A stretch of DNA of 26,461 nucleotides from a virus. The DNA lies in IMG/VR virus record IMGVR_UViG_3300050821_001895, positions 1-26,461 of that record. One strand, given 5' to 3'. Below the pieces are notes generated by a model. The model had not been told where the DNA came from, did not search any database, and saw nothing but the letters and a program-made list of their open reading frames with translations. The translations under genes and the position numbers were made by a program. Shown piece by piece: positions 2,128 through 19,190 of the stretch; the stretch's first letter is position 1, and each line of letters opens with the position of its first letter.

Positions 2128-2479
2128 GATAAACGATAAGTACGTAGAAGAGTTCTTAAAGAGCGTAAAATCTAACGAGACTTACGTAAACTCAATGAAA
2201 TGGAGGCTAATGGAATCAAACAAGAAGCCCATTCTTTTATTCGAAATAGGTATCCTTCAGGTATACCACTTTCAGACGCAAGAGGACTACGAGGCCAACA
2301 AGAAGTACACAGAAGTTTATTGGAGACATAAGGTAACGTTATACACTTACGGGCCTTTTCCTACCATAGACGCCGCCGTGACTCATCACGAGTACACTAT
2401 GTCTAAGATGAACGTGGAAGACGCCAAGAACGTGGTTTACGTAAATTTCCAGACCAAGAAGCGCATAGCCAACAAATAA
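2063..2479 (+). CDS. Hypothetical protein, up to 138 aa, start uncertain
   Basis: The frame is open from an ATG at 2063 (GGAG at 2053-2056) to a TAA at 2477-2479. The first 65 bases overlap the previous gene. Codon use from about 2138 onward (AAC, TAC, GTA, GAG, AAG) looks like genuine local coding. A second candidate start is the ATG at 2210, which has GGAGG at 2202-2206 but a short spacer; TTG at 2117 is a third option. The product is basic and rich in Lys, Tyr and Glu, with no membrane segment. I do not recognise it. The stop codon lies inside a perfect inverted repeat that probably ends this transcript. Confidence 0.6.
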   Translation: MYKLTFLQRLSLYWLILKLRRRINDKYVEEFLKSVKSNETYVNSMKWRLMESNKKPILLFEIGILQVYHFQTQEDYEANKKYTEVYWRHKVTLYTYGPFPTIDAAVTHHEYTMSKMNVEDAKNVVYVNFQTKKRIANK

Positions 2480-2493
2480 GGCTCTTATTTGTT
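2471..2493 (+). terminator. Perfect 10-bp hairpin overlapping the stop codon
   Basis: AACAAATAAG (2471-2480) is followed by a GCT loop and CTTATTTGTT (2484-2493), an exact inverted repeat. It sits at the end of the first plus-strand gene block, just before the 266-base gap. The stem is AT-rich and the U-tract is formed by the 3' arm itself, so it is not a classic strong terminator, but the position fits one. Confidence 0.5.
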
Positions 2494-2568
2494 TCCATAT
2501 TCATCAAGATAATCAGTTATTTAGACGTTTCATTTGGTAATCACCGATAAAATAAACAATATATATAG

Positions 2569-2604
2569 GTATACATACGAGTTGTATATGTATACATGTA
2601 TACA
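2569..2604 (+). promoter_or_regulatory. Candidate operator: palindrome plus half-site 21 bases away
   Basis: TGTATACATGTATACA at 2589-2604 is a perfect 16-base palindrome. GTATACAT occurs at 2569-2576 and again at 2590-2597, 21 bases apart, which is two helical turns and places both on one face of the DNA. This pattern suits a dimeric regulator binding cooperatively. The palindrome lies 20 bases upstream of the conserved 22-base element. Confidence 0.4.
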
Positions 2605-2624
2605 GTAAACTATAAACCATCAAA

Positions 2625-2646
2625 GTGACTATCCACCGTATACAGC
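2625..2646 (+). promoter_or_regulatory. Conserved 22-base element, copy 1 (promoter candidate)
   Basis: It matches GTGACTA-N3-ACC-N2-ATACAGC, with variable bases TCC and GT. The other copies are at 9742 and 16548. It lies on the plus strand 99 bases upstream of the first structural gene. Length and invariance resemble single-subunit phage RNA polymerase promoters, but no such polymerase is in this window. Confidence 0.6.
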
Positions 2647-2745
2647 ACTAGGAATATCCTTATTGCTTCCCATCTAGGCCCTGCCCGAACATGGTGAGAA
2701 CGCGCTCCGGCTCTACGTTCATAACGCAGGAAAGAGGATATTCTC

Positions 2746-3417
2746 ATGGCAAATCGCAACTGGTCCAACGGCGGAAAAATCTATGCAATGCATACTTCCC
2801 CGGTACTAATCGACTGTAACTTCATCGTAGATCCAGCAAACGGCAACGGACTCGGCATCAGAAGCCTCAAAGGCCCTGCCGTTGAAAACGTTTTCATGCA
2901 TACTTCCGCTCCTTTAGCAGGCTCCGGTAACCCCAATCCAGAAGCAGGTATCATAGTAATCCAGCTAGCAGATAACTATAACCGCTCCCTCAGTGGCTTT
3001 AGCTCGATCGTCAGTCCTATTGGCTCGTCAGTTACGGCTACGACTGCAACAGATCCAGCGGTAGTTACGTCCCTGGGCACCTCTACTACGGCTCAGTGGC
3101 TGGCAGTAGGCTTTCCTAGTCAGTACCTGAACTCAGCTACTCAGCTTCCTAACATCGGCGCTACGTTCATTCCGACGAGCTCTGCTACCATCGGCGGCTC
3201 TGCAACCGTAGCTCCTCCTACTGCCTCTACTATTGATAACATCGAGACAGTTGGCGATCCTAACCAGACATTGGTCTCTACTCAGCCTCAGACAGTTGGC
3301 GGACAAATCATCCTCCAGTGTCTCCAGGACGGAGCGTTGACCACTCCTGTTACAGGATCTGTTATCAGCATTGCTATGTACCTCTCTAACTCTAGCGTAA
3401 CGGTGCAAGGCGAGTAG
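2746..3417 (+). CDS. Predicted virion structural protein
   Basis: The product has 223 residues; the ATG at 2746 follows an AGAGGA-like site. It is the first gene of the structural transcript. The N-terminus (SNGGKIYAMHTSPVLIDCNF) and the GLGIRSLKGP segment match, from memory, a conserved protein of uncultured environmental podovirus-like phages found beside adaptor and nozzle genes. It is Thr/Ser/Ala-rich and largely beta by eye, without signal peptide or catalytic motif. Its position before the adaptor suggests a head decoration or head-completion role. This is inferred from context; no function is established that I know of. Confidence 0.7.
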   Translation: MANRNWSNGGKIYAMHTSPVLIDCNFIVDPANGNGLGIRSLKGPAVENVFMHTSAPLAGSGNPNPEAGIIVIQLADNYNRSLSGFSSIVSPIGSSVTATTATDPAVVTSLGTSTTAQWLAVGFPSQYLNSATQLPNIGATFIPTSSATIGGSATVAPPTASTIDNIETVGDPNQTLVSTQPQTVGGQIILQCLQDGALTTPVTGSVISIAMYLSNSSVTVQGE

Positions 3418-3436
3418 TCCTCGTTGAAAGGACTTT

Positions 3437-4792
3437 ATGGCTGGCATTCCAGGCATACCTCAAAATCTCTTAGTCCAAACGGCTAACCAGCAAATCCTGG
3501 TTAGCTGGGATCTATCTACAGGCGCTACGTCGTATAATATCCAGCGGAGCCAAGACAACGTCACTTATGCCACCATTGCAACGGTGTCAGGCTCTCCTTT
3601 AGCTACGTCTTACCTCGACACAGCAGTAACCTTAGGAACCCAGTACTGGTATAAAGTAGCTGCTAGTTCTTTGAGTGCTAGCATTAACTTCACAGGACAG
3701 CCTATTCCAGGCGGCACTGTTATTATTTTTTATGGTTTCTCATCTTTTACATTTACAGCTGTAGCTAGTTCTCCAGTAGGCAATCAATTCGCTATAGGAG
3801 CATCGATAGCTCAAACTATTTTAAATCTAAGTCAAGTCATTAATAATATTATTCCAAGTTTGGTCGCTACCGCTCCTACTCCTACACAATTGTTTATAAC
3901 TGCATTAGATCCTAATGTTTATGACGTTACTTCTTCATTGACTAATACCACGGTAACTCCATTCTCAGTTGGCGGTATTAGTCAGTTCACACAGCCAGCC
4001 TCAGCCGTTCCTACGCCTACAGGTGAGATGTGTCTGTCTCAGATCAGGCTAGCCGCCATGCAGCGCGCTGACAGGGTTAACTCGAACTTCGTAACGGTAC
4101 CGGAGTGGCGGAATTACATTAACCAAGCAATGTTTGAGCTCTACGACCTGCTAATCACCGTCTACGAAGACCTCTACGTAGCGCCTCCCATTCAAATCGT
4201 AGCAGACGGCGTTACGTTCCTTTATCCGCTGCCAAACGGTTCTAATACGTTCTTGAACGGTTTGAACCCAGCTTTGACAGTTACGCCTCCTCCGTTCTAC
4301 AAGCTATTAGGCGTGGACTTGGCCCTTAACAACGCAGTAAACGCCTTCGTTACGGTGAACAAGTTTAACTTCGCAGACAGAAACAGGTTTGTCTATCCTA
4401 ACACCGCAAGTACGATATACGGCGTATTCAACCTCCAGTACCGCGTTATGGGCTCTAACATACAGTTCATTCCTACTCCAACTTCTGGTCAAGCCCTGCG
4501 CTTCTGGTATATCCCTAGACTTACTGAGCTTTTACAAGAAACTGACACTACCAGCACAGGTATATCTGGTTGGATCGAGTACGTTATCGTGAGAGCAGCT
4601 AAGTACGCCTTGGACAAAGAAGAGTCAGACTCCTCTAAGCTGGACCAAGAGCTACTTTTCCTAAAGGGCAGAATAGAAGAGTCCGCAGCTAACAGAGACG
4701 CAGGCATGCCAGACACTATCAGCGACGTCAACAACGGTAACTGGGCTAACGGATGGTCTGGCGGTCGCAATGGTGCTGTGGGGGGATTCTAG
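3437..4792 (+). CDS. Head-to-tail adaptor with N-terminal FN3 domain and inserted module
   Basis: The product has 451 residues with an AAAGGA site before the ATG. Residues 1-77 look like a fibronectin type III domain up to strand F (PGIPQNLLV, LVSWD, SYNIQRS, YWYKVAAS). Residues 80-178 are a separate beta module of the F-x-G-x-P-x-x-G-x-T type (INFTGQPIPGGT, then FTFTAVA and the GASIAQTILNLSQVINN segment), seen in other phage tail proteins. Residues 181-195 look like FN3 strand G, so the module seems inserted in the FN3 F-G loop. Residues 198-451 match the podovirus adaptor (SU10-like): AAMQRADRVNSNFVTVPEW, ELYDLL, FNLQYR and an RIEESAANRDAG tail. The adaptor joins portal to tail. Bases 3674-3970, which encode the insert, are visibly richer in A and T. 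Confidence 0.75.
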   Translation: MAGIPGIPQNLLVQTANQQILVSWDLSTGATSYNIQRSQDNVTYATIATVSGSPLATSYLDTAVTLGTQYWYKVAASSLSASINFTGQPIPGGTVIIFYGFSSFTFTAVASSPVGNQFAIGASIAQTILNLSQVINNIIPSLVATAPTPTQLFITALDPNVYDVTSSLTNTTVTPFSVGGISQFTQPASAVPTPTGEMCLSQIRLAAMQRADRVNSNFVTVPEWRNYINQAMFELYDLLITVYEDLYVAPPIQIVADGVTFLYPLPNGSNTFLNGLNPALTVTPPPFYKLLGVDLALNNAVNAFVTVNKFNFADRNRFVYPNTASTIYGVFNLQYRVMGSNIQFIPTPTSGQALRFWYIPRLTELLQETDTTSTGISGWIEYVIVRAAKYALDKEESDSSKLDQELLFLKGRIEESAANRDAGMPDTISDVNNGNWANGWSGGRNGAVGGF

Positions 4793-5091
4793 TGACCCTC
4801 CTACCCCAGCAGCTAACCTTTGCCCAGCTCCTAACCAAGTGGGCCAGCATCATTAACCCGGTGATAAACAGCCCTACGAACAACGCTAGCGTATTGAAGA
4901 GCGTCATGCTGACTACTGGACATAACTCGGTGAATCACCTGCTAGGCAGGAACCTTCAAGGCTGGTATCCGTCTAGAATCAGAAACGTCTCTGCTACTAT
5001 ATACGACACTCAGGACGCTAACCAGACTCCGCAGCTAACTCTTGACCTAGTAGCCTCTACAACCGTCACAGTCGATTTGGTGGTGTTTTAA
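4792..5091 (+). CDS. Small neck or tail structural protein
   Basis: The start is a GTG at 4792 that shares its G with the preceding TAG (TAGTG), with GGGGG upstream. The product has 99 residues. The core HNSVNHLLGRNLQGWYPSRI followed by TIYDTQ and hydrophobic strands matches, from memory, a common small protein between adaptor and nozzle genes in environmental podovirus-like phages. It is predicted all-beta. Spacing indicates coupled translation with the adaptor on one side and the fibre on the other (TAATG). The exact virion location is unknown. Confidence 0.65.
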   Translation: MTLLPQQLTFAQLLTKWASIINPVINSPTNNASVLKSVMLTTGHNSVNHLLGRNLQGWYPSRIRNVSATIYDTQDANQTPQLTLDLVASTTVTVDLVVF

Positions 5092-6233
5092 TGTTCACGA
5101 CTTCTCCTAACATGCAGCTTCCAGTTCCCTCAGTAGGACAAGAACCAGGACCACAGTATGCCTTTGACGTTAACTCTTGCTTTAGTCTTATTGATTCTCA
5201 TAACCATAGTCTAGGCAAGGGCATACCGATTAACCCGTCTGGGCTGAACATCAACGCGGACTTGACGTTTCAGAACAACCAGGCTACTAACCTCCTAACT
5301 ACGCAGTACACTGCTGAGAGCTTACCAACGACTACTAGGCAGGCCATCTCGGTAGCTCCCGTGTCCACTACGAACGAGCTCTGGTATACGGACAGCAACG
5401 GAGTGTCGACTCAGATCACCACTAACGGCGTGGTTAACGCGACGGCGGCGGCCATACCAGGCGAGAGCTACGTAGCAGGTACGTTCATATGGACTCAAAC
5501 TCAGAGCTCTCTGCCGACTACCCCGGCTAACTTCGACATAGGCTCCATTACGATTCGTCCCAACACGGCAGCTACTACTCGCGGGATTACTATCTCTCCT
5601 CCAACTCTCATTGGTCCAACGCCGTACGCACTAATACTTCCTTTGCTGCCGTCTGGAACTAGCTTCTTAACGCTTGACAACTCAGGCAACATCGTAGCCG
5701 GTACTTCAACTACTGGCGGTATAACTGGAACTAACATAGCTTCGGCTACGATTACGGGCAGCAACGTAGCTTCTAACACTATTAGCAGGACTAACTTAAC
5801 CGCCGTCGGCCAGCAAGTTAGTTCAAACGTTACTTCTTTTTCCACTGCTAACAGTAGCCCAGTAGCTGTATCTGGCGCTACCGTTACCATTACGACTACC
5901 GGTAGACCAGTTATGTTAATGCTTATAAGCTCGTCTGCGAATCCAGTAGCAGGCTCAGAAATATTTCTTTCAGCAAATACGAGCTCAAGTGAGACATTAG
6001 TTGGTCAAATATGCTTTCTAAGAGGTGCTACTCAAATAGTTACGCAAAGCTTTGGAGGAGGAATATTTACAAGTACGTCTAATAATGTCATTGTCCCGCC
6101 CTCGTCGTTTAACTACCTAGACGTAATAGCTGCTGGTACCTACACTTACTCGGTATCAGCTCTAGTAACCTCTACTAGCGGTGTTCCTACTATAAACATA
6201 AAAAATATTCAGCTAGTAGCCTACGAGCTATAA
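5091..6233 (+). CDS. Tail fibre-type protein
   Basis: The product has 380 residues; the ATG overlaps the previous stop. The N-terminal part has the pattern of a fibre attachment domain: MQLPVPSVGQEPGPQYAFD, then SLIDSHNHSLGKG and GLNINADLTFQNNQA. The middle is Ser/Thr-rich with short repeats of ITGTNIAS / ITGSNVAS type. The last 120 residues or so look like a beta-sandwich tip domain. Bases from about 5850 to 6233 are richer in A and T than the first half, which suggests that the receptor-binding tip was exchanged. It directly precedes the nozzle gene, so it may be the fibre docked at the tail. No chaperone or lyase motif is visible. Confidence 0.7.
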   Translation: MFTTSPNMQLPVPSVGQEPGPQYAFDVNSCFSLIDSHNHSLGKGIPINPSGLNINADLTFQNNQATNLLTTQYTAESLPTTTRQAISVAPVSTTNELWYTDSNGVSTQITTNGVVNATAAAIPGESYVAGTFIWTQTQSSLPTTPANFDIGSITIRPNTAATTRGITISPPTLIGPTPYALILPLLPSGTSFLTLDNSGNIVAGTSTTGGITGTNIASATITGSNVASNTISRTNLTAVGQQVSSNVTSFSTANSSPVAVSGATVTITTTGRPVMLMLISSSANPVAGSEIFLSANTSSSETLVGQICFLRGATQIVTQSFGGGIFTSTSNNVIVPPSSFNYLDVIAAGTYTYSVSALVTSTSGVPTINIKNIQLVAYEL

Positions 6234-9200
6234 TGGCACTCCAAAAGCAACAAGTTCCAATTAACTTCATTAAAGGACTGGACACTAAAACTGATCCGTA
6301 CCAGCTCCAAATAGGAACGTTTAGCTCCCTTCAGAACTCCGTGTTTACCACTTCTGCCAGACTAAGCAAGCGCAACGGATTCGATATCTTAACTACTGCT
6401 CCGATCCTGCAGACTCCTACTCTTGCTACCCTCAACGACAACCTGCTGGCTCTGGAGTCCGAACTCTACGCCTTCAGCGAAGACACGAACCAGTGGCTAG
6501 ACGAGGGGTTCATCCGTCCGTTTAACATCCAGACTCAGCCGTTAGTCCGGGTGAGCACTTCTCAAACCGCTCCAGATGCCGCCATAACGGCCAACGGGCT
6601 GACTTGCCTGGCCTACGTAGACAACTCAGTAGCTTACTACCAAATCTCTGACTCGAACACTGGCCAGCAAATCGTCAGCAGAACAGCTCTACCCGCAACT
6701 GCTGGACAGCCGAGAGTTTTTCTTCTTAAGAACTACTTCATCATAACGTTTATAGCGAACATAACCTCTACTCCTACGCTCCAGTACGTCCCTATTCCTA
6801 TAGCTAACCCAAGCGCTCCTCTGCCAACTGCTACCATCAGTTCTACGGTATCGAGTCTGACGGCAGGATACGACGCATTTTCGTACAATAACACCCTGTT
6901 CATAGGTTGGAGCTCAACTGGAACGTCAGTTAAGATAGCCTACCTCACCTCGTCGTTGGCTCTGTCTCCGTCCACTAGCACTACGAGCGCTCCAGCAGAC
7001 CTCATGTCCATAACAGTTGACCCAGTGAACAACATCGTATGGCAGACCTGGTGGGATTCAGGGTTGGACGACGGGTTCACGGCCTCGTTTAACCTCGTTT
7101 TAGTGCCTCTGGTGGCTAAAACAGCTATCATAACAGACACGCCCATAGCTGAGATCACTTCCATAGTCCAAAACGGGATTCTGTCAATATTCTACCAAAA
7201 CATTAATTTCTACACATACGGCAGCGACAACATAAGAACGGACTACATCTCAGCGCTAACTGTAACTCGCCTAGGCGTAGTCGGTCCGACTACAATTATC
7301 GCTAGATCAGTAGGGCTAGCCTCTAAGCCAGCCATCAGCAACGGAACAATCCTGTTTCTAACGGCTTACGGCGACGAGAACCTTACTCCAGCCACGAATG
7401 ACTCTAACCAGCCGTCGTACTTCCTAATGGACAGCATCGGCAGGATAAGCACAAGGCTAGCGTACTCTAACGGCGGCGGCTATGCATCGTCTCAGGTATT
7501 ACCATCGTTCGTAACTGCCGGTACTGAGATGTATATCCCGTACCTGGTAACGGATTTCTTGGCAACGGTTAACAAGGGAACTAACCTGCCAGCAGGAACG
7601 CCAGTAAACGCCATATATACCCAGACAGGCATTAATCTCTGCATCTTTACTACGTTTGGTAACTCCCCTACGGTTAAGCAGTACTCGTCTGAGATAGCCA
7701 ACGCCCTGCACCTAACAGGCGGACAGCTCTGGGAGTACGACGGCGTAAGGGTAGTTGAGCACGGGTTCCAGGTGTGGCCTGAGAACATCCTAGTAACTCC
7801 GTCAACTACTGGCGGAGCTATCACAGCAGACACGTACTACTACGTGTTTACCTACGAGTGGACAGACAACGCAGGAAACCTCCACAGGTCAGCTCCTAGC
7901 ATCCCTTTTCCTGTTACGAACACCGGCTCGACGTCCAGCAACACTATATACGTTCCCACGCTTAGGCTAACGTACAAGCTAGCTCCGAACCCGGTTAGAA
8001 TCGTCGGGTACCGCTGGAGCGTTCAGCAGCAAGTCTACTACCAGTTCACTAGCATCCAGATGCCGGTATCGAATACTCCTTTTACTTCGTCTACTTGGAC
8101 GGACGGTACTAACACAGACACGAGTACTACTGGGCTGGACTTCACGACGATAGTGGACACGTTTCCGTACTCCAGCATCCTGGGCCAGACGCTGCTATAC
8201 ACCACAGGCGGGGTAATCGAGGACATAGCAGCTCCTGCATCTGTCGCATCTGCTTTGTTCAACAACAGGCTATTCCTGATAGATGCAGAAGATCCTAACT
8301 TACTGTGGTTCTCGAAGAAAGTAATAGAAGCCGTTCCAGTGGAGATGTCAGACCTCTTAACTCTGTTCGTAGCTCCCACGACGGGAGCTCAGGGCTCTAC
8401 GGGACCTATGACTGCGCTGTCAGCCATGGACGACAAGCTAATTATCTTCAAAAAAGACGCGATTTACTACATAAACGGTAACGGACCTGACAATACAGGT
8501 GCAAACAGCACGTTCTCAGATCCGGTATTCATTACTAGTACGGTTGGCTGTAACAACCCTAACAGCGTTATACTCGTGCCAAACGGCGTCATGTTCCAGT
8601 CCGACAAGGGTATATGGCTTCTGGGCAGAGACCTGAGCACTCAGTACATCGGCGCTCCAGTAGAGGAGTTTAACGCCATTCCCGTAGCTAGCTCCCAGAC
8701 AATACCAGGTACGAACCAAGTCCGCTTCGTCTTAACAGGTAACTCCACTACGCTCATGTATGACTACTACTTCCAGCAGTGGGGAACGCACACGAACGTC
8801 AACGCCGTGTCGGCAACGCTGTATCAGAGCTCGCACACGTACATAAACACCCTCGGCCAGGTGTTCCAAGAGACTCCCGGAGTATATCTAGACGGAGATA
8901 ATCCCATTTTAATGCAGTTCACGACTGCCTGGATCAACGTAGCTGGCATACAGGGATACGAGAGGTTTTACTTCGCTAACCTCTTGGGAACGTTCTTCAC
9001 GCCGTTCTCGCTTATAGTGAACCTAGCTTATAACTACAACTCCTCTAGCCAGCAGCAGATCCAGGTATTACCCAATAACTACGCCCAGAACTGGGGTAAC
9101 GAGGCTCAGTGGGGTAGCGGGCCTAAGTGGGGAGGATCTAACGGTGACGGCAACGTGTTCAGCGCCAGACTGTTCCCCGAGAAGCAGAAATGCCAGAGCT

Positions 9201-9346
9201 TTCAAGTATCTGTACAGGAACAGCCAGCACTGTATTCCACTGGATTCCCGGCTTACGGAGAGGGATTATCCCTGTCAGGGCTAATGCTCACCGTTGGAAT
9301 TAAAAAAGGAAGCAGAACTCAGTCTGCGAACCAGTCCTTTGGATAG
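6233..9346 (+). CDS. Tail nozzle-type protein, 1037 aa
   Basis: The ATG overlaps the preceding stop (TAATG). The N-terminus (INFIKGLDTKTDPYQL, then LQNSVFTTSARLSKRNGFD) is the hallmark of podovirus nozzle or tail-tube B-type proteins. The C-terminal half holds blade-like repeats typical of the same proteins: SALFNNRLFLIDAEDPNLLW, MTALSAMDDKLIIFKKDAIY and GVMFQSDKGIWLLGRD. The family forms a hexameric nozzle at the tail end that gates DNA release. A length of about 1000 residues is at the large end but normal for SU10-like forms. No enzyme motif is seen. Codon use is uniform, so no swapped module is evident. The end overlaps the next gene by up to 53 bases. Confidence 0.75.
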   Translation: MALQKQQVPINFIKGLDTKTDPYQLQIGTFSSLQNSVFTTSARLSKRNGFDILTTAPILQTPTLATLNDNLLALESELYAFSEDTNQWLDEGFIRPFNIQTQPLVRVSTSQTAPDAAITANGLTCLAYVDNSVAYYQISDSNTGQQIVSRTALPATAGQPRVFLLKNYFIITFIANITSTPTLQYVPIPIANPSAPLPTATISSTVSSLTAGYDAFSYNNTLFIGWSSTGTSVKIAYLTSSLALSPSTSTTSAPADLMSITVDPVNNIVWQTWWDSGLDDGFTASFNLVLVPLVAKTAIITDTPIAEITSIVQNGILSIFYQNINFYTYGSDNIRTDYISALTVTRLGVVGPTTIIARSVGLASKPAISNGTILFLTAYGDENLTPATNDSNQPSYFLMDSIGRISTRLAYSNGGGYASSQVLPSFVTAGTEMYIPYLVTDFLATVNKGTNLPAGTPVNAIYTQTGINLCIFTTFGNSPTVKQYSSEIANALHLTGGQLWEYDGVRVVEHGFQVWPENILVTPSTTGGAITADTYYYVFTYEWTDNAGNLHRSAPSIPFPVTNTGSTSSNTIYVPTLRLTYKLAPNPVRIVGYRWSVQQQVYYQFTSIQMPVSNTPFTSSTWTDGTNTDTSTTGLDFTTIVDTFPYSSILGQTLLYTTGGVIEDIAAPASVASALFNNRLFLIDAEDPNLLWFSKKVIEAVPVEMSDLLTLFVAPTTGAQGSTGPMTALSAMDDKLIIFKKDAIYYINGNGPDNTGANSTFSDPVFITSTVGCNNPNSVILVPNGVMFQSDKGIWLLGRDLSTQYIGAPVEEFNAIPVASSQTIPGTNQVRFVLTGNSTTLMYDYYFQQWGTHTNVNAVSATLYQSSHTYINTLGQVFQETPGVYLDGDNPILMQFTTAWINVAGIQGYERFYFANLLGTFFTPFSLIVNLAYNYNSSSQQQIQVLPNNYAQNWGNEAQWGSGPKWGGSNGDGNVFSARLFPEKQKCQSFQVSVQEQPALYSTGFPAYGEGLSLSGLMLTVGIKKGSRTQSANQSFG

Positions 9347-9770
9347 TGAAATTTCAGTTACTCCGTTTAAGTTCAAGCATTTACCCCTGCTGAGCGACAT
9401 GCTTGAGTCCAACAAGTTCCCGCACCTGACAGACATATCCATGAAAACGCTGCCTAAGATCGGGTACATAGCGCTACTCAGCGGACAGCCAGTAGCGGCT
9501 GGCTTCCTCAGACGAATAGAAGGCGGGTACGCCCAGATAGACACCCTGGCTTCTAACCCGTTCTTCGGCTCTAAACTACGTCACGAGGGACTTAACTTAA
9601 TTGTTAAGTCCCTCATTGAAGACGCTAAAGCATTGGATTTAAAGGCTATTATATCGTTTACCTCTGACGAAGGCGTTTTAACACGCGCTAAATCCATTGG
9701 CTTTAAGGAAACCCACCAGAAGCTAATAGCCTTGTCCCTGAGTGACTATTCACCACATACAGCTACTTAG
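9294..9770 (+). CDS. GNAT-like acetyltransferase domain protein
   Basis: The frame is open from a TTG at 9294 (158 residues). The start is uncertain: CTG 9324 and TTG 9339 are alternatives, because recognisable sequence begins near ISVTPFKFKHLPLL. The fold pattern is GNAT-like: a beta strand (YIALLSGQPVAAGFLRRI), then strand plus turn (IDTLASNPFFGSKLRHEG) where motif A binds acetyl-CoA, a helix, then SFTSDEGVLTRAKSIGFKET. The usual Q/RxxGxG/A loop is degenerate. Such genes occur beside internal virion proteins in related environmental phages; the substrate is unknown. Two features lie within it: a perfect 12-bp hairpin, and the second copy of the 22-base element, which overlaps its last codons. 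Confidence 0.6.
   Translation: MELKKEAELSLRTSPLDSEISVTPFKFKHLPLLSDMLESNKFPHLTDISMKTLPKIGYIALLSGQPVAAGFLRRIEGGYAQIDTLASNPFFGSKLRHEGLNLIVKSLIEDAKALDLKAIISFTSDEGVLTRAKSIGFKETHQKLIALSLSDYSPHTAT
9585..9614 (+). other. Perfect 12-bp hairpin inside the GNAT-like gene
   Basis: GAGGGACTTAAC (9585-9596), loop TTAATT, GTTAAGTCCCTC (9603-9614). The arms are exact complements. No T-run follows, so it is not a standard terminator. An RNA-processing site or a stability element near the end of the nozzle transcript is possible. Confidence 0.6.
9742..9763 (+). promoter_or_regulatory. Conserved 22-base element, copy 2 (promoter candidate)
   Basis: It matches GTGACTA-N3-ACC-N2-ATACAGC, with variable bases TTC and AC. 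It overlaps the last codons of the GNAT-like gene and ends 41 bases before the start of the ejection-protein block. Similarity to copy 3 continues a few bases further (CTTA). Confidence 0.6.
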
Positions 9771-9804
9771 CGTCAGATACAACTAATTAGCTTTAGGAGA
9801 TTAA

Positions 9805-11268
9805 TTGGGCTTTATCGGCGGTCTTTTAGGTGCGGCAGGCGGAGCGTCAGGCTCTGGCTTCCAGGCAGCCAACGGACAAAATCCTTCAATCATGCAGCAA
9901 CCGACTACTACAGCCCAGGCCAATACAGCCTACGGCCAGACTCAAACAGGTCTCCAACAGCAACAACAGTTCCTCCAAGCCCTCCAGGCCCAAAACGGCA
10001 TTCAAAACCAACAAAGCGTATACAACCAGCTCCAAGGCGTAGCCAACGGAACGGGACCTAACCCTGCTCAGGCTCAGCTAGCTCAGGCTACCAGCGCTAA
10101 CGTGGCTAACCAAGCAGCTCTTATGGCTGGCCAGAGAGGCAGCAACGCTAACGTTGGTTTAATGGCTCGCCAAGCCTCCCAGCAAGGCGCTCAAACCCAG
10201 CAGCAGTCCGCTGGCCAGGCCGCTACGCTTCAGGCTCAGCAGAGCTTAGGAGCTCTAAACAGCATGCAGGGACTAGCTACTAACCAGGTAGGCCAGCAGG
10301 CCAACGCAACGAATTCTTACATGCAGTCCGCTCAGGGCTCTCAGTCAGCCTTGCTAGGCGCTATAGCTGGTCAGAACGCAACGGCAGCAGGACTCCAGTC
10401 CAATATTAATACTAATAACACCGCGCTAGCAGGACAGCAGATGGCCGGGCAGCAGAACATGCTGGGAGGACTAGCAGGTGCCGCTGGTGCCGCCATGCTG
10501 TTAGCCGCTGAAGGCGGAGAAGTCCCTCAGTCAGCTCCCCAGCACTACGCCGAAGGCACTCCTTACATCACTCCGGTGCAAATAGGTCAGAATCCAATTA
10601 ATCAAACTTCTAGCAACATGTCTGGCCCTCAGTCCAACGTAGGTCAATATCTTAACGGACAGTCCTCGTCTTCGTCTCCCTCGAACAGCATCGCAGCGGG
10701 CGCTACCATGCCTCAAGCAAGAGATCAGTCAGCTAACTACGCGAGTCTAGGTAAAGGTCTTATAAGCCAGTACAATAGTTCTGGGTTAGACACCAGCTCT
10801 AGTTCAGGCGACCAAGCCACGGGCAACAACATCAACCAAGTCTCTCCAGACGCTAGCTACGCTCAAAACGGCATTCAAGCAACCCCAGACGTGGGATCAG
10901 ATCCTTACTCGTCGGCGGCAGGATCTTCTACAGGCGGCCTAGGAAGCCTAGTAGGAGCAGAAGACTCGTTCGCTAAGGGAGGCAAAGTCCCAGCAATGGT
11001 ATCGCCTGGAGAGCAGTACTTGCCTCCTAAGGACGTTGAGAAGGTCAAAAAAGGATCTAATCCACTCAAAGTCGGCGAGAAGATCCCAGGTAAGCCTAAG
11101 TACAAGGGTAACGACTACCGTAACGATACGGTAAAGAAAAACCTTGAGTCCGGCGGCATAGTAATCCCTAACGAGATCATGCAGTCCAAGCGCCCGCACT
11201 TCGAAGCAATGAAGTTCGTCCATGCCCACATAGCTAAGCACCGTGGTTTACCACCTAAGGGTAAGTAA
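9805..11268 (+). CDS. Internal/ejection-type virion protein 1 (Gln-rich, 487 aa)
   Basis: The start is a TTG at 9805 with AGGAG at 9795-9799; no ATG fits. The first 20 residues are Gly/Ala-rich (GFIGGLLGAAGG), which could insert into membrane. Residues to about 230 are extremely Gln/Ala/Asn-rich and probably helical. A short hydrophobic stretch (AAGAAMLLAAEGG) follows. The C-terminus (FAKGGKVPAMVSPGEQYLPP, GKPKYKGNDYRNDTV, GGIVIPNEIMQSKRPHFEA) matches a conserved tail in uncharacterised proteins of podovirus-like environmental phages. Three genes in a row of this kind are where podoviruses encode core proteins ejected with the DNA. The ejection role is inferred from order and composition. Confidence 0.7.
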   Translation: MGFIGGLLGAAGGASGSGFQAANGQNPSIMQQPTTTAQANTAYGQTQTGLQQQQQFLQALQAQNGIQNQQSVYNQLQGVANGTGPNPAQAQLAQATSANVANQAALMAGQRGSNANVGLMARQASQQGAQTQQQSAGQAATLQAQQSLGALNSMQGLATNQVGQQANATNSYMQSAQGSQSALLGAIAGQNATAAGLQSNINTNNTALAGQQMAGQQNMLGGLAGAAGAAMLLAAEGGEVPQSAPQHYAEGTPYITPVQIGQNPINQTSSNMSGPQSNVGQYLNGQSSSSSPSNSIAAGATMPQARDQSANYASLGKGLISQYNSSGLDTSSSSGDQATGNNINQVSPDASYAQNGIQATPDVGSDPYSSAAGSSTGGLGSLVGAEDSFAKGGKVPAMVSPGEQYLPPKDVEKVKKGSNPLKVGEKIPGKPKYKGNDYRNDTVKKNLESGGIVIPNEIMQSKRPHFEAMKFVHAHIAKHRGLPPKGK

Positions 11269-13871
11269 TGTCGTCCAAAGTAGTATTGGATCTAAAGAAG
11301 TTCAAGCATATCAAGTCTGACAAGGACACTACTACGCTTCGTCACGCAGACGGACACGAGCTAAAGATCGCTCATAACTCGATGTCTCCTGAGTTCCAGA
11401 AGCAGCTAAGCGCTTTGTCCAAGATATCGTCTCAAGACAAGACACCGCTACAAGCAGACGAGACGAAGCACCAGGGTAAACCAGCTCCTCAGGTGTCTCC
11501 TAATCCGTCGTCAGCGCCTTCAGCCATGTTCTACGACGGCGGACCTACTCCTAGTCCTTCTCCCGTACCTAGTAAGACTCAAGAGCCCGATCCAGACAAG
11601 GCTCAGAAGGCCATGGACGACATAAACAAGGGAGAGGACCTGTCAAAGACCTGGTCTAACATCAAGACAGGCATGGGCTTTGCTGATGGCGGAGCCGTCA
11701 ACGACGTTAACGCCCAGACAGAAGCCAGAGAGATGAAGGCCAACCTTCCTCCGGTTGACTCGTCCATCCAAGCTAAAAAAGACCTCTATAACCAGCTCGT
11801 TGCCAGCGGCGGAGCGGCTACGTCTCCAGCCGACATGTTCGGACCTAACGGAGAAGTACCAGCTAACCCGGTGAATCCAACGCTCTGGGGGCAAATCGAG
11901 AACTCTCCTCACTTAGTGCAGCTCATCTCTCAGCAGCAAGCCGACAGAAAGCAACAGACCAGGTCAGCTCCGGCGGCGGAGCAGCAAGCCGTCCACGACC
12001 AAGCCTTACCGCAGAACGTGGTGAACGCCAAGATAGGCGCTCCGATGGTCCCAGATCCAGGTGCTCCTAACCAGGCGATGCAACCTAGTAAAGAGGTTCC
12101 TGTAATCCCTCCAAAAAAGACATATGCCAAAGGTGGAAACATCCAGGAGTACGCAGAAGGCACGAACGACGTAACTCCGCTGAAGAACGCGAGTCAGATC
12201 AATAACAACGACGACACCGTGCCTGAGAAGAATCCTCCGTATGCTGCCGCTAACGTCCCGCTGGCTAGCCCGACTGAGCTAAACCTTAACCAGCCGCTGC
12301 AGACTCCTGCTTCAAGCGAGCCTCCAGCCGTTAATCCCAATGACTACGCTACGATATACGACAGGATCTACAAGCAAACGCTGAAGTCCGGTGCGTCTGA
12401 GTCCCAGGCCAGAACGTTTGCGCTGAACATGGCTGAGAACCAGCGAACCTCAAACGAGAAGTCCGCTCAGTCCGACATTACGGCTAAAGACAGCCTAAGA
12501 AACAGCATACTAGAAGAAAATAAGCGCAGGCAGTCCCTAGGCATTTCTCCCTTAGAGGTTCCAGCCGGTGGTACTCCTGAGGCTCCAGCAGCTCAGCCGC
12601 AAGCAATGGACCAAACCCAGGCTCCGCAGCAGCCGCCTCCTGCCGGTAGTTCTCCAGACGCCTTTGACAAGTATTCGTCTAGCCTCAACGCGGCTAAGAG
12701 CCAGGAGCTCAAGGGCATCCAGGCCCAGAGCCAGGCCCTCCAGGGACAAGCCCAGCTCCAGCAGCAAGCCTACGTAGACGACCAGAAATCCAGGCAAACC
12801 GCTCAAACGAACTTCCAGAACGAGTACAACAACCTAGAGAACGAGCGTCAGAACCACGTAAAAGACATCGAGAATAACTTCATTGATCCAGACCAGTACT
12901 GGAAGGGCGACGCTCAAGGCAACGGCGGCCACAGCAAGCTAGCCGCAGCTATCGGAATGATCATAGCCGGATTTAATCCAACGTCTAAGCCGAACGCAGC
13001 GGTTGACTTCTTAAAGTTCCAGATAGACAAGAACATGGAAGCTCAAGCCAAGAATCTAGACGCAAGAGGAAACCTACTTAGGGCTAACATACAGCAGTTC
13101 GGCAACAACAGAGACGCCGTAGACATGACTAGACTAATGCTCAACGATGACTTGACAAGACGCCTAGACCAGAAGTCAAACCAGCTAGCCGCTAGCGGCA
13201 AAGGACTCCAGGCAGGCATCCTTCAGCAGAAGAAAGGCGAGCTAATGCGCGCCTACGCTCCTCTCCAGATGGAGATGGCGCTGCGCAAGTCCATGATTAA
13301 CATCGCTAACAGCGGTAACTCCCAAGACGAAGGAGCTCTTAACCACACCATAGGCATGCTACGCGTCATGAACCCAGAGATGGCTAAGGAAATGGAATCT
13401 AGACGAGTACCAGGTATTGGTATAGGCAGCATTCCAGTTCCAGACGCGGCTAGACAGCAGCTAATCGCTCATCAAAAGCTTGACTCAATAGGTAACGACG
13501 TGCTTAGCTACGCCCAGAGCCACACTAACCTAGTACCGGGTACGGCTGAGTACAACACTGGCGTCCAGAAGTCCATGATCCTCCAGCAGGCCATCAGAGA
13601 AGGCTTGTTGGGAACGGTGTTCAGAGAGTCAGAGAAGCCCTTGCTGCAGAAGTTCGTTGACGACAACCCGGCAGGAGCCTTTAAGACGCTTAGCTCAGAG
13701 CCTAAGATCAAGACAATCCTGGACTCCAACAGGATGCAGGGCAACATACTTAAGTCAAACTACGGCTTGCCTGTAAAGAATCAGCCTCAAGCCCAACAAC
13801 CCCAAATAGTAACTGGTAAAGACGGAAAACAGTACCGTCGCGAAGGTAACTACATGGTTCCAGTCAAGTAA
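11268..13871 (+). CDS. Internal/ejection-type virion protein 2 (867 aa)
   Basis: The ATG overlaps the previous stop (TAATG). The N-terminal 450 residues are Pro/Ser/Gln-rich and low in complexity, with the motifs FADGGAV and YAKGGNIQEYAEGT, which echo AEGGEVP...HYAEGTPY and FAKGGKVP in the previous protein. Residues of about 450-750 are helical, with long Gln/Glu/Lys/Arg runs suggesting coiled coil, and contain one weakly hydrophobic segment (KLAAAIGMIIAGFNPTSKP). The C-terminus ends GKDGKQYRREGNYMVPVK. No lytic transglycosylase or peptidase motif is visible. A structural component of the ejected core is the best guess. Confidence 0.7.
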   Translation: MSSKVVLDLKKFKHIKSDKDTTTLRHADGHELKIAHNSMSPEFQKQLSALSKISSQDKTPLQADETKHQGKPAPQVSPNPSSAPSAMFYDGGPTPSPSPVPSKTQEPDPDKAQKAMDDINKGEDLSKTWSNIKTGMGFADGGAVNDVNAQTEAREMKANLPPVDSSIQAKKDLYNQLVASGGAATSPADMFGPNGEVPANPVNPTLWGQIENSPHLVQLISQQQADRKQQTRSAPAAEQQAVHDQALPQNVVNAKIGAPMVPDPGAPNQAMQPSKEVPVIPPKKTYAKGGNIQEYAEGTNDVTPLKNASQINNNDDTVPEKNPPYAAANVPLASPTELNLNQPLQTPASSEPPAVNPNDYATIYDRIYKQTLKSGASESQARTFALNMAENQRTSNEKSAQSDITAKDSLRNSILEENKRRQSLGISPLEVPAGGTPEAPAAQPQAMDQTQAPQQPPPAGSSPDAFDKYSSSLNAAKSQELKGIQAQSQALQGQAQLQQQAYVDDQKSRQTAQTNFQNEYNNLENERQNHVKDIENNFIDPDQYWKGDAQGNGGHSKLAAAIGMIIAGFNPTSKPNAAVDFLKFQIDKNMEAQAKNLDARGNLLRANIQQFGNNRDAVDMTRLMLNDDLTRRLDQKSNQLAASGKGLQAGILQQKKGELMRAYAPLQMEMALRKSMINIANSGNSQDEGALNHTIGMLRVMNPEMAKEMESRRVPGIGIGSIPVPDAARQQLIAHQKLDSIGNDVLSYAQSHTNLVPGTAEYNTGVQKSMILQQAIREGLLGTVFRESEKPLLQKFVDDNPAGAFKTLSSEPKIKTILDSNRMQGNILKSNYGLPVKNQPQAQQPQIVTGKDGKQYRREGNYMVPVK

Positions 13872-16555
13872 TGGACATTCCAGCAGGCGCTATCCCCGTA
13901 GATCAGTTCGAAGCTGCTCAGAGCCCTGGGGTTGCTAGTACGCAACCACCTGCTGGAGCTATACCCGTATCTGAGTTCCAGTCCCAAGAAGAGGCATACG
14001 GCGGCGCCAAGCAAGGCGCTATAGCGACAGGCGAGGGAGTAGCTCAAGGTCTACTAGGCCCTGTAGCTCCTTACCTTGAGTCACAGTTCACGAGTCCTGA
14101 AGCGATACGCGGCAGAGCGGCTCAGCATCCAATAGCCAAGACAGTTGGAGAGCTAGGCGGCTTCACTGCTGGCATGATGACTGGTACTGGCGAGGCAGAA
14201 GTGATGTCTCAAGCCGGTAAGGCCGCCACGGAAGCTCTCGGACTATCCAACCTAGGCAAAGAGGCCTCCTACGGAGCCAGAGTAGGCTCAAGCGCAGTAC
14301 AGCAGGCCGCTGAGATGGCAGTTCTTCAAGGTGGAGACGAGACGGCTAAGAAGATCCTCCAAGATCCAGACTACTCCGCAGAGTCCGCCATATCAAATAT
14401 AGGCATGGCAGCAGCTCTAGGAGGCGCTGGCGGTGCTTTCATCACGGGTGCAGTGTCTCCCTTATGGAAGGCCACCATAGGTCCTAAGGTAGACGACCTG
14501 CTAGGCATGGTAAAGAACCACGTCGACGGATCTAACCGCCTCATGCTGCCAGAAGAGCAGGAAAAGGCAGCTCAGACTCTAGGAATCAAGATTGATCCAG
14601 TAATGCGCTCAGGCATGTCTGACAGTGCAAAGGCCAACGAGTACTTTGGTACGCTGAGACGCTCTGAGAACAAAGAAGTACTTGACTCTATTGATACTTT
14701 AAAGAAGAACGCTAGCGACTCCGTGGCTCAGTCCGTTGGAGTCAAGCCAGAAGAAGTACTCGACTACTCAGAGAACAAGGCAGGTAAGAACCTCTCCGCT
14801 GCCTTTGAGAACGAGTTTAAGCAGAAGTACGAGCCGCTGGCTAAGGAACTAGACGCAAGAGACGCCAAAGCCTCTAAGATCAAGCTAAACGACGACGACA
14901 AGCTGTTCCAGAGAGATAAGCTCCTGGAGCGAGGCATGACGGACTTCAACGCTAACTCCCCGTACTACAAGATCTACTCGGACTTCGGAGACAGACTTTT
15001 AGACGTTGAGAGCATAGGCGACCTGAATCAATTGAAGTCCGAAGTAGGCGGAGAGCTCAGAGAAGCGTTGAGATCAGGTAATACCAACAAGATCAAGGCC
15101 TACAGCTCAATCCAAAGTAATATCTCTAACTTCCACGACGCTCACGTGAGCCAGGCCTTCGGAGCCGAGAACGAAGCCGTCAACAAGAACTACTCTGGCT
15201 TCAGACAAACCATGGATGATTTAGCGTCTCACGTTGGGATCAAGCGCCCGTCTGGATACGCAGGACTAATGAGAACGATTAAGGACGAGATCGCTCCCGA
15301 GAAGCTGTTGTCTAAGTTCTCAATTGAGGGTAACTCGGACTTCATCCCGTTCCTGCAGAAGAACTTTCCAGACACGTTTGGCCACGTAGTAATGAACGAG
15401 AGAAAGCAGCTAATCAAGCCAGCTATACTAGCCGCCAACAAGAAGGGCGAAGTTCCTATAGACGTCTCAAAGTTAAACGACATCATCAGGAAGCGCATGG
15501 CTGAGGCTCCGGAATACGTTAGAACGGTACTACCGCAGGATGCAATCAATAAAGCAGACGCGGCAGAGAAGCTAATCAAAGGCATTCCCAGCCCTAGGGA
15601 CTCTGGTACACCAGCGGGTATGATGAAGATATTTAAATCGTTGCCTACTAGCGCGCTAGCAGCCGTAGGATGGCTAACAGGCCACGGGCCTATAGCTAGC
15701 CTTCTCTTCGGCGAGACTGCTAACAGGATGGCCGTGGACGCTCCACTGTCGTACAAGCTAGCCTACCTTAGATTCATGAGCTCAGACGCTCCCATTAAGT
15801 CCGAGGGCTTCAAGGCCATGGTGGACTTCATACACGCTACGTACAAGGGAGAGTCGTTACTAGCAAAGGCTTCTAGTAACGTCTTAAAGGCAGGAGCCCA
15901 GATAGTACCAACGAATTTAATGCCGGACAAGGCTGACAGGGAGAAGCTAGACAAAGCCGTCTCGAAGAATAACTCGAACATGCTGCAGACCAACTCCCAG
16001 AACGTCAACGTAGGGCACTACCTTCCGCAGCACCAGACCGCTCTGAGCCAGACTACGACTCAAGCAACCCAATACCTGCAGTCCCTTAAGCCCCAGACTA
16101 ACCAAAACAGTCCTCTGGACACTCCAGCTAAGCCGCTGCCTGCTCAGACAGCCAGGTATAACAGGGCTTTAGACATAGCCCAGCAGCCCGCCATAGTCCT
16201 CCAGCACGTAAAGAGCGGTACCCTGCAGACCACTGACGTCCAGGACCTAAAGGCCATGTATCCAAACCTTTACAGTAGGATGTCCCAGGACCTAACGAAC
16301 GAGCTAGCTTCAGCTAGGGCTAACGAGGAGAACATTCCCTACAAGACCAAGATAGGTATATCCCTGTTTCTAGGCCAGCCGATGGACTCCTCAATGACGC
16401 CTATGAACATAGTAGCGGCTCAGCCTATTCCTAGACCTCCGCCTCCCGTGCCTCAGGGTAAGAACCGCAAGTCCACGAGTTCGTTGGGTAAATCTAATAA
16501 CTCCTACAAGACCGCTACCCAGGCCGCCGAGTCAGACAGGACTAGCCGTGACTAA
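13871..16555 (+). CDS. Internal/ejection-type virion protein 3 (894 aa)
   Basis: The ATG shares a base with the previous stop. The N-terminus carries PAGAIPV-[DS]-[QE]-F twice, at residues 4-13 and 27-36, a signature I associate with internal proteins of podovirus-like environmental phages. It is followed by a helical Ala/Gly-rich region with possible membrane-active segments (IGMAAALGGAGGAFITGAVS and, near residue 600, ALAAVGWLTGHGPIASLLFG). The middle is charged and helical. The tail is Gln/Pro-rich and ends basic (KNRKSTSSLGKSNNSY). Length and hydrophobic patches suit a protein that helps form a DNA channel across the host envelope. No catalytic motif was found. The stop lies inside copy 3 of the 22-base element. 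Confidence 0.7.
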   Translation: MDIPAGAIPVDQFEAAQSPGVASTQPPAGAIPVSEFQSQEEAYGGAKQGAIATGEGVAQGLLGPVAPYLESQFTSPEAIRGRAAQHPIAKTVGELGGFTAGMMTGTGEAEVMSQAGKAATEALGLSNLGKEASYGARVGSSAVQQAAEMAVLQGGDETAKKILQDPDYSAESAISNIGMAAALGGAGGAFITGAVSPLWKATIGPKVDDLLGMVKNHVDGSNRLMLPEEQEKAAQTLGIKIDPVMRSGMSDSAKANEYFGTLRRSENKEVLDSIDTLKKNASDSVAQSVGVKPEEVLDYSENKAGKNLSAAFENEFKQKYEPLAKELDARDAKASKIKLNDDDKLFQRDKLLERGMTDFNANSPYYKIYSDFGDRLLDVESIGDLNQLKSEVGGELREALRSGNTNKIKAYSSIQSNISNFHDAHVSQAFGAENEAVNKNYSGFRQTMDDLASHVGIKRPSGYAGLMRTIKDEIAPEKLLSKFSIEGNSDFIPFLQKNFPDTFGHVVMNERKQLIKPAILAANKKGEVPIDVSKLNDIIRKRMAEAPEYVRTVLPQDAINKADAAEKLIKGIPSPRDSGTPAGMMKIFKSLPTSALAAVGWLTGHGPIASLLFGETANRMAVDAPLSYKLAYLRFMSSDAPIKSEGFKAMVDFIHATYKGESLLAKASSNVLKAGAQIVPTNLMPDKADREKLDKAVSKNNSNMLQTNSQNVNVGHYLPQHQTALSQTTTQATQYLQSLKPQTNQNSPLDTPAKPLPAQTARYNRALDIAQQPAIVLQHVKSGTLQTTDVQDLKAMYPNLYSRMSQDLTNELASARANEENIPYKTKIGISLFLGQPMDSSMTPMNIVAAQPIPRPPPPVPQGKNRKSTSSLGKSNNSYKTATQAAESDRTSRD

Positions 16556-16569
16556 TTACCACATACAGC
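16548..16569 (+). promoter_or_regulatory. Conserved 22-base element, copy 3 (promoter candidate)
   Basis: It matches GTGACTA-N3-ACC-N2-ATACAGC, with variable bases ATT and AC. Its first eight bases are the end of the third ejection-protein gene. It ends 33 bases before the ATG of the fibre block. Confidence 0.6.
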
Positions 16570-16602
16570 AGCTTAATCAACAGCTTACCCATAAGGTGCA
16601 AG

Positions 16603-16980
16603 ATGTCTTCTAGACCAATTCTCTCTCCCTTCTCAGTAATAACTAACGGCAACATGAGCTCTAGCATCATCTCAGCCGTTACCATAGTGCAGAATCTCTC
16701 CATGATAGGCTACGACGTCTCCTGGACGTCTGGAGTGGCTCCTGTGGGCACTATGTCCGTGCAGGTCTCAAATACGTACAGCCAGAACGCAGACGGCACG
16801 GTTAACAACCCAGGTAACTGGACTACACTGACTCTGAGCGCTCCAACTACGGTTTCAGGATCTACCGGCAACGGGTTCGTAGACGTAGACGCTACTGGCT
16901 GCTACGCCATGCGGCTCGTTTATAACAGAACTAGCGGTACTGGTACCATGAACGCTACCATCAACGCTAAGGTAGCTTAA
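16603..16980 (+). CDS. Small beta-rich structural protein, 125 aa
   Basis: The ATG at 16603 is preceded by AAGGTG. The product is all-beta by eye and Ser/Thr/Asn-rich: IGYDVSWTSGVAPVGTMSVQ, NPGNWTTL, CYAMRLVYNRTSGTGTMNAT. It shares an order of motifs with the protein at 19191-19556 (GY, a strand, an NW motif, a RVVY/RLVY strand with TSGTGT/GGTSTG and a final NATINAKV/NVTINPKG). The two are therefore diverged paralogues. Proteins of this type stand beside fibre genes in environmental phages; they may be fibre-associated or decoration proteins. This is the first gene after copy 3 of the 22-base element. Confidence 0.65.
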   Translation: MSSRPILSPFSVITNGNMSSSIISAVTIVQNLSMIGYDVSWTSGVAPVGTMSVQVSNTYSQNADGTVNNPGNWTTLTLSAPTTVSGSTGNGFVDVDATGCYAMRLVYNRTSGTGTMNATINAKVA

Positions 16981-16981
16981 T

Positions 16982-18274
16982 ATGGCAGATAACTTCTACG
17001 CGTCATATCCTGTTGAAGGTGGAGGCGGATCGGGAGTCACTTCCCTAAATAGCCTGACTGGTGCTCTTAGTCTCGTCGGCGGTACAGGTATATCTGTTAT
17101 TCCATCTGGCAGTAACATAACCATCGCCTCTACGGCTACTCCCGTCGTTCCCGGCGGAGCTAACACAGACATACAGTTCAACTCTTCAGGAACGTTCGGC
17201 GGATCTGCCAACATGACCTGGGACGGTACAAACATTACGTTGAGTAACAACAGCGCCGTTAACTTCACTAACTACGGCTCCGTTGGCATGGGCTCACAGT
17301 TCGGCAGAGTGGCCATAAATGCAGCTAACGCTGTTGAGACGAACGCCAGCAGCATCCAGTTCACTGGTCCTGTTGGCGTTATATTTGGATCTACTGGAAG
17401 CGTTCTTGAGCTAGTTTCTCAAAACGGTAACGTTCAAGTACGTACTCCTAGCAACGCTAGCTTCTTAGAGCTATTTGGTACTGGCGGCGCGTCTACGGGA
17501 CTACAATTCGACGGCGGCACTTCTGGCCACATGACTTTTAAGGTTCCTGCCACGGTAACTACGTACGGCGTCATTCTGCCAGCAGCTCAAGGCACTGGAG
17601 CGCTGACGAACGACGGTGCTGGTAATTTATCTTGGGCGTCTTCTGGCAGCGGAGCTAACACTGCTTTATCTAACTTGACTAGTCCTACCGCAGTAAATCA
17701 ATCTTTGGGCGATTCTAGCGGGGTGACTTCTGCTGATCTCACGGCTAGAGCATTGTTTACAACTAGTGGTTCTATAGTAACTGTTAGATGGCATGAGCAA
17801 GTCTTACAGCTCTTAGATTTTAATCAAGTTCCTTCCGTAGCTTGGGGCGGCACTTCAGGTCCTAGTCGTACTTTGATTGATAGTAGTAATACAACGTCTG
17901 TTGATTGGAATAATAAACTTCTGTACGAAGGTGCCGATGTTTCTATTGATTGGGCCGATAGATTGTTACGAAGCGGCACTGGTACCAACATGTTCGGATG
18001 GGCTACAGCCGGTACTTTAAGTTTTGGTAGCAATATAATCACGAATCCCGCTGGCGGCACCGGTACGGTAGCTGCCGCAGCTAGCACGGCTACCATCACA
18101 GACTCAAGAATCACTGCAACTAGCATGGTTATAGTCGTTATAACGACAGCAGACGCTACCGCAGGCGCTGTCAGAAGCGTAGTACCGTCTTCAGGCTCAG
18201 CAGCTCTCACGTTATCTGCAGCGGCTACCGCTACAACCTCGTTTTATTACATGATAGTGGAAACACCGTCTTAA
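16982..18274 (+). CDS. Tail fibre protein, 430 aa
   Basis: The ATG lies two bases after the previous stop. The N-terminus (VTSLNSLTGALSLVGGTGIS, then GSNITIAS) is a common phage fibre opening. A shaft-like Ser/Gly/Asn-rich part follows, with TDIQFNSSGTFGGS and a GTGALTNDGAGNLSW strand. A module with repeated V-x-W and R-x-L elements (VTVRWHEQVL, SVAWGG...RTLID, SVDWNNKLLYE, VSIDWADRLL) fills about 250-335, and a beta-rich end follows. Bases 17620-18000 are richer in A and T than the flanks, which suggests exchange of this module. The product probably trimerises. Host receptor binding is inferred. Confidence 0.7.
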   Translation: MADNFYASYPVEGGGGSGVTSLNSLTGALSLVGGTGISVIPSGSNITIASTATPVVPGGANTDIQFNSSGTFGGSANMTWDGTNITLSNNSAVNFTNYGSVGMGSQFGRVAINAANAVETNASSIQFTGPVGVIFGSTGSVLELVSQNGNVQVRTPSNASFLELFGTGGASTGLQFDGGTSGHMTFKVPATVTTYGVILPAAQGTGALTNDGAGNLSWASSGSGANTALSNLTSPTAVNQSLGDSSGVTSADLTARALFTTSGSIVTVRWHEQVLQLLDFNQVPSVAWGGTSGPSRTLIDSSNTTSVDWNNKLLYEGADVSIDWADRLLRSGTGTNMFGWATAGTLSFGSNIITNPAGGTGTVAAAASTATITDSRITATSMVIVVITTADATAGAVRSVVPSSGSAALTLSAAATATTSFYYMIVETPS

Positions 18275-18281
18275 GGAACAC

Positions 18282-18602: not shown

Positions 18603-18938
18603 ATGGCAACGACTATACCGAACTTCTTAACTCCTAAAGTCATAACGAATCTCGATACTTATAACTACACGGTGCTGTCCGCAGCTATGCACGTAGCTTC
18701 TATCCAGCTAACCGAGATTCCCGCGTCAGGTATCAGCATTCTAATCAAGCAGAACGGTACTACCGTTGCTACGGCTCCTGCTCCGTCTAGCACTCAACTC
18801 GCTATTACTCTCAAAGTCACGATGAACTGCGCCATAAACGACGTTATCTCGTTCGTTTTGAGCTCTTCGACTCCTTCGGATCAAAACCTGAACGCCATTA
18901 AAGCAATCCTGAACGTTCACGTAGGCTCTGGTAACTAA
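18603..18938 (+). CDS. Small beta-rich protein, tandem paralogue B
   Basis: The product has 111 residues; the ATG directly follows the TAA of paralogue A. The shared core is described there. DNA identity with paralogue A is low at third positions, so the duplication is old or one copy was acquired. Its stop overlaps the next ATG (TAATG). Confidence 0.65.
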   Translation: MATTIPNFLTPKVITNLDTYNYTVLSAAMHVASIQLTEIPASGISILIKQNGTTVATAPAPSSTQLAITLKVTMNCAINDVISFVLSSSTPSDQNLNAIKAILNVHVGSGN

Positions 18939-19189: not shown

Positions 19190-19190
19190 C

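Follow-up and report, generated by a model that had tools for sequence, protein, structure and literature searches.

The window analysed here is the whole of IMG/VR virus record IMGVR_UViG_3300050821_001895, a stretch of 26,461 bases. It has no end repeats, so the complete genome is probably longer. In this window a 22-base element, GTGACTA-N3-ACC-N2-ATACAGC, heads each of three plus-strand units of structural genes, and related phages carry repeats at the same operon heads, each in its own spelling. We are strongly inclined to regard the element as the core of the phage's late promoters. The wider explanation, in which the host RNA polymerase is redirected to these cores by a phage factor of drifting specificity, is probable as a whole.

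A preliminary description of the window, made from the sequence, had reported three copies of the element on the plus strand with 17 of 22 positions identical in all of them, and a pattern scan reproduced each of these points. With up to three mismatches allowed on both strands, the scan returned exactly three matches, all perfect, and thus no additional copy inside genes. The mean chance expectation over 100 dinucleotide shuffles was 0.05 (none of the 100 reached three), and a reversed control pattern had no match in the window. Taken separately, the half-sites occur near chance frequency (GTGACTA four times against 3.9 expected, ATACAGC seven times against 3.7), so the signal resides in the whole 22-mer and in its placement. 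The copies are as follows:

2625 to 2646, plus strand: element copy 1 (GTGACTATCCACCGTATACAGC), head of structural unit A (2746-9770), family site S2
9742 to 9763, plus strand: element copy 2 (GTGACTATTCACCACATACAGC), head of unit B (9805-16555), family site S3
16548 to 16569, plus strand: element copy 3 (GTGACTAATTACCACATACAGC), head of unit C (16603-22849), family site S4

The plus strand is tightly packed between 2746 and 22849, where these three units follow one another with one copy heading each. That there are only three gaps longer than about 20 bases, as first described, holds in part: those at 2480-2745, 9771-9804 and 16556-16602 are clear, and two more, near 9346-9399 and 22581-22682, appear under other choices of start codon. 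Two of the copies had been described as partly encoded in the end of a gene, and hence as not explained by simple protein homology. The overlaps are real, copy 2 lying entirely within the 3' end of the open reading frame (ORF) that stops at 9770 and copy 3 beginning in the ORF that stops at 16555, to which its first 8 bases belong. Copy 3 is, however, partly under protein constraint: its GTGACTA codes for an "RD-stop" at the C-terminus that is conserved, the relative G003 having it too.

Genome-specific repeats in related phages

A search with the tail protein of 1037 residues (6233-9346) found no relative among cultured phages, 50,697 phage records being covered, and many matches among uncultured phage contigs. 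The terminase gave remote matches only, and no relative was found in bacterial genomes. The comparison was made with 63 related uncultured phage records, fetched as whole or long contigs; their genes follow the order of the window. Several are about 58 kilobases (kb) long with differing start points and matching ends, and so are essentially complete. The literal pattern had no match in any other viral contig searched. Absence from related phages had been proposed as grounds for refuting the element, but this proved a misleading guide: the exact sequence is indeed absent, yet the positions are conserved with other spellings.

In 31 of the 63 records, a strong direct repeat is common to two or more of the late-operon heads, against 1.0 expected from control gene heads. 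Ungapped direct repeats scoring at least 13 were found in 21.1% of the pairs of late-operon heads, compared with 0.4% for inverted repeats and 0.4% for control gene heads (the controls being one of the two compared segments reversed, and pairs among other gene heads, at the same threshold of 13). The repeats occur in direct orientation only, are about 20 bases long and are spelled differently from genome to genome. The genome G003 carries an exact 18-mer, ACCTAATACGCTATATTA, four times, once after the large terminase gene and once before each of the orthologues of the genes starting at 2746, 9805 and 16603. In G023 these four heads carry GGGACGTAGCGGCCTTATAG, of which the genome has no extra copy, and the repeats of G012, G015 and G016 are ATGGACATTTTGACTAnCCTGAGGC, GGACTGTATCGCAAT and AAAGACTAAATACCGTA, respectively. 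Complete relatives have three to four copies per genome, which precede the same four operons, in the best cases without a copy elsewhere. The fourth copy of the more complete relatives sits just after the large terminase gene, and a copy at this position is expected in the window's phage as well, beyond the left end of the window.

At loci of G013, G015, G003 and G018 (e.g. L109-L117), repeated short boundary sequences such as AAAGGATAAAAAGCCTTTA and TTTAACAAGATTAGAAA..GGTTATTTATGG flank inserted small genes; a homing endonuclease or the insertion of mobile genes may have left them behind.

Element shape, RNA leader and the reading of the element

In a common register built from 35 genomes, the copies of one genome agree most in positions 6-11 and 15-19 and in the T of position 24. 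The frame shared across genomes is weak, roughly GGAC[T/A] ... RCA ... T-R, with 9.3 bits in total. The two conserved blocks lie about one helical turn apart. A palindromic relation between them was unsupported, inverted-repeat tests being near background.

The distances between the element and what lies downstream of it are steady. In 17 genomes the pairing of a structured RNA leader begins 8.7 +/- 0.96 bases after T24, despite their differing element sequences. Start codons follow T24 at a median of 45 bases in the last unit (interquartile range 42-47) and of 94 in the first (86-108). The leader of the window stands directly downstream of copy 1:

2651 to 2744, plus strand: structured RNA leader, conserved in relatives
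2651-2661/2734-2744, plus strand: helix P1 (long, closing)
2670-2673/2691-2694, plus strand: helix P2 (inner)
2698-2702/2716-2720, plus strand: helix P3 (inner)
2680-2684/2726-2730, plus strand: loop-to-tail pseudoknot

At least 17 relatives have it at the same place, in front of the gene that opens the tail unit. Permutation across genomes indicated that an arm pairs better with the partner arm of its own genome than with that of another (P3, p = 0.002; pseudoknot, p = 0.004; P2, p = 0.03). RNAalifold found no structure in an unguided alignment of the leader, the structure-only z-score of the window's leader is unremarkable (-1.15), and Rfam had no match in the window. Many relatives of about 36 kb have a different but related-looking leader (..ATACTGC..GAGAGAAAT..) at this place.

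As the leader must be transcribed, transcription has to begin upstream of the element or in the short stretch that separates it from the leader. In a few relatives a strong terminator hairpin ends directly before the element, at 4 of 33 S2 sites, compared with 4 of 1400 random sites. Matches to sigma-70-like promoters (TTGACA and TATAAT, spaced by 16-18 nucleotides) number eight in 2450-22440 and none in the three gaps of the window. Together, the leader spacing, the hairpins and the lack of sigma-70-like matches in the gaps are as would be expected of a late promoter core. The early proposal that the element marks the structural units, and probably starts them, is well supported by the equivalents at the operon heads of many relatives, by their single orientation and by the fixed spacing to leader and start codon.

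The same observations bear on two other readings. The copies sit at the borders of structural modules, where they could be linkers that promote recombination among related phages; however, sequences that differ among genomes offer no common homology through which to exchange, copies are lacking at other gene borders and the distances to leader and start codon are constant, which leaves this reading a very slim chance. An RNA-level signal, for antitermination or processing at the start of each late transcript, would agree with a location near the 5' end of each unit and with the structured leader of one of them. It is nevertheless improbable, as the element class is not self-complementary, and two short blocks one helical turn apart are typical of protein-DNA contact.

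As to the reader of the element, the preliminary description had favoured a single-subunit phage RNA polymerase of the T7 or N4 type, which would itself recognise the element as its promoter. The elements are contiguous, asymmetric and about 17-20 base pairs (bp) long, a size and an asymmetry that fit such promoters, and they are strongly conserved within a genome and divergent between genomes. In some relatives the geometry is also similar (about 17 bases, TATA, G), the elements of G013, G015 and G023 ending in TATAG. The search for a polymerase or sigma gene elsewhere in the genome, suggested at the outset, was run on the relatives and found neither such a polymerase nor sigma region 2. No match to the single-subunit polymerase family (PF00940) appeared in about 60 related records, complete genomes of about 58 kb included, whereas the positive controls T7 (1e-110) and N4 gp16 (1e-14) were detected. 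The complete relatives have no unassigned ORF large enough for such a polymerase, and only three to four copies of the element each. We therefore hold a phage polymerase to be a poor prospect. Sigma region 2 (PF04542) was found in none of 20 relatives and was detected in control genomes. The alternatives named in the description, a sigma-like factor or an activator, are a better fit than a phage polymerase. The feature expected of activator-dependent late promoters is present, a conserved site upstream of each late operon at a fixed distance. Since neither a phage polymerase nor sigma region 2 was found, the host polymerase acting with a phage factor is the remaining reading, and we think it likely.

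The best candidate for this factor is a protein of about 130 residues, encoded in the relatives between the polymerase/primase genes and the terminase. Among the 53 records that bear a terminase, 48 have a single copy of its gene. The other five comprise three fragments and two genomes, G045 and G051, that are also without a convincing element. The predicted structure is confident (predicted local distance difference test score of 87), with a C-terminal helix-turn-helix (HTH), and the N-terminus has a conserved WYxKLxxxGFxDIE motif. Genomes with similar C-terminal halves of the protein tend to have similar elements, more so than general relatedness would give (partial r = 0.17, p = 0.012), and the N-terminal half has no such relation (-0.005). 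Nor is element similarity predicted by the similarity of the terminase, the capsid, tail-tube B or one neighbouring gene. This covariation makes it suggestive that the HTH protein reads the element, and its identity with the factor is a possibility that we put forward tentatively. The weak family leads of the candidate are Q-type antiterminators, late activators and other HTH proteins; a few members gave weak Sigma70_r4 leads (E about 1e-4 to 1e-3), with no significant fold match. The protein was also considered as the terminase small subunit, which seems less likely, as several genes separate it from the large subunit; the helical protein of cluster 48, encoded directly before the large subunit, looks a better candidate for that role.

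Several results weigh against this explanation. About half of the records are without a convincing repeat by the direct-repeat method, either through divergence of their copies or because the simple gene caller missed gene boundaries. A tandem-dimer (direct-repeat) relation of the two blocks is unsupported overall; the 20 tests of tandem and palindromic relations gave one nominal offset. The covariation is weak: among ten comparisons, tail-tube A (0.126) and the portal (0.108) come near the value of the candidate, and in a smaller coevolution test with 17 genomes the portal did equally well. Family and fold searches give the candidate no firm assignment, some of its weak matches being to the terminase small subunit, transposases and LuxR-type regulators. 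Finally, the candidate gene is seen in relatives and falls outside the window of this phage.

Under the explanation that we prefer, that of a redirected host polymerase, one copy would start each structural unit, three of them in the window and a fourth predicted after the large terminase gene. A phage-encoded sequence-specific factor would redirect the host RNA polymerase, contacting the two blocks one helical turn apart (register 6-11 and 15-19). The AT-rich stretch beside the contact blocks would melt, and the RNA would start about 1-8 bases downstream of the element. The specificity of the factor may drift fast, which would give each phage its own spelling at conserved positions.

Gene map of the window

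The units comprise the following genes, all on the plus strand unless stated, the tail-tube labels being taken from place in the gene order:

2746 to 3417, plus strand: first gene of unit A (family cluster 7), structural protein without assigned function
3437 to 9346, plus strand: tail genes of unit A, from the gene map and gene order
3437 to 4792, plus strand: tail-tube A-like gene
4753/4792 to 5091, plus strand: unit A gene, from the gene map
5091 to 6233, plus strand: unit A gene, from the gene map
6233 to 9346, plus strand: tail-tube B-like gene, 1037 residues
9399 to 9770, plus strand: last gene of unit A, with copy 2 in its end; GNAT-like by appearance, no Pfam match
9805 to 16555, plus strand: unit B, three large proteins (487, 867 and 894 residues), probably internal virion proteins by position
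16603 to 22849, plus strand: unit C, tail-fibre and accessory genes, from the gene map
19991 to 22396, plus strand: tail fibre gene, within unit C
25535 to 26440, minus strand: DUF6745 protein, starting with tandem 12-base units

The 12-base unit (TTGTTCTCAAGA) is repeated 20 times in tandem at 26217-26461, where the DUF6745 protein starts. On the same strand, 3' of the tail genes, a cassette has a subtilisin-type protease gene adjoining a phage lysozyme gene (23709-24497, 24706-25155). At the left end, short tandem DNA repeats (1-109) are followed by a lipoprotein-like protein with collagen-type repeats (118-375). The plus-strand protein 828-1523 begins with MNSKGQSLVGIMISLAIFSIMSVSIFQ, which resembles the N-terminal methylation motif of type IV pilins and pseudopilins and is unusual in a phage; its match to PF07963 (E 6e-4) fell narrowly below the cut-off.

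Comparison with known late regulons

In phages phiEco32 and 7-11, a phage sigma factor reads a motif of 9-12 bp (TAATGTATA; TGTGATGTTATA) (PMC4331800). There too, low-copy, conserved and phage-specific elements lie upstream of the structural genes, the layout being shared and the specificity different, and they were likewise found by pairwise comparison of intergenic regions (PMC4331800). The present element differs in its length of about 20 bp with two blocks, in the lack of sigma region 2 in 20 relatives and in a far greater turnover. With promoters of the T7/SP6 type it shares a contiguous, asymmetric design of about 20 bp at the head of late units and a clade-specific sequence; the relatives, unlike those phages, have no polymerase gene that our searches could find, although the positive controls were found. 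Late transcription in N4 relies on the host RNA polymerase, which the phage protein N4SSB activates (PMC4496689). The phage studied here resembles N4 in being podovirus-like and in that host polymerase and a phage protein would serve the virion genes, but N4 has two phage polymerases, of which the relatives show none, and no genome-specific family of 20-bp elements is described for its late promoters in PMC4496689.

The stoperators of cluster A mycobacteriophages, which silence transcription from 20-30 genome-wide sites (PMC9283540, PMC6550527), offer another reading of the element, as an operator at which a phage repressor blocks transcription. They are similarly asymmetric, oriented, phage-specific and fast-diverging (PMC9283540, PMC6550527), one small HTH protein per phage is found here as well, and in the known analogue a single protein molecule, with two DNA-binding domains, binds the site (PMC9283540). 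Against this stand the three sites of the window, and three to four in complete relatives, located at late operon heads only and at a fixed distance from the leader; no integrase/repressor module was recognised, though a systematic search for one was not made. A repressor site is on balance unlikely.

The ArpU/RinA and Q-type late regulators include an HTH protein of about 130 residues encoded just before the terminase genes. The candidate is like them in size, HTH and place, and unlike them in having several target operons instead of one; its Pfam and PHROG leads are weak, with no significant family match. Overall, the system works like a phage-factor-dependent late regulon, and the polymerase gene and the sigma region 2 that define T7-type and sigma-70-family systems were not found in the relatives searched. 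What sets it apart from known late regulons is the extent of sequence turnover at fixed positions.

One might speculate that these phages represent a new minimal class of late factor, a doubtful proposition for now, in which a protein of about 130 residues with a fast-changing HTH steers the host polymerase to a four-promoter regulon whose code is repeatedly rewritten, giving orthogonal pairs. How the specificity of a regulator and all of its sites change jointly is a long-standing question. It becomes testable with dozens of related phages that have the same small regulon, of about four sites and one candidate factor, in many spellings. If the explanation is true, the factor-promoter pairs would be a source of mutually independent promoters. 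The elements also permit the mapping of late operons in a large family of uncultured phages.

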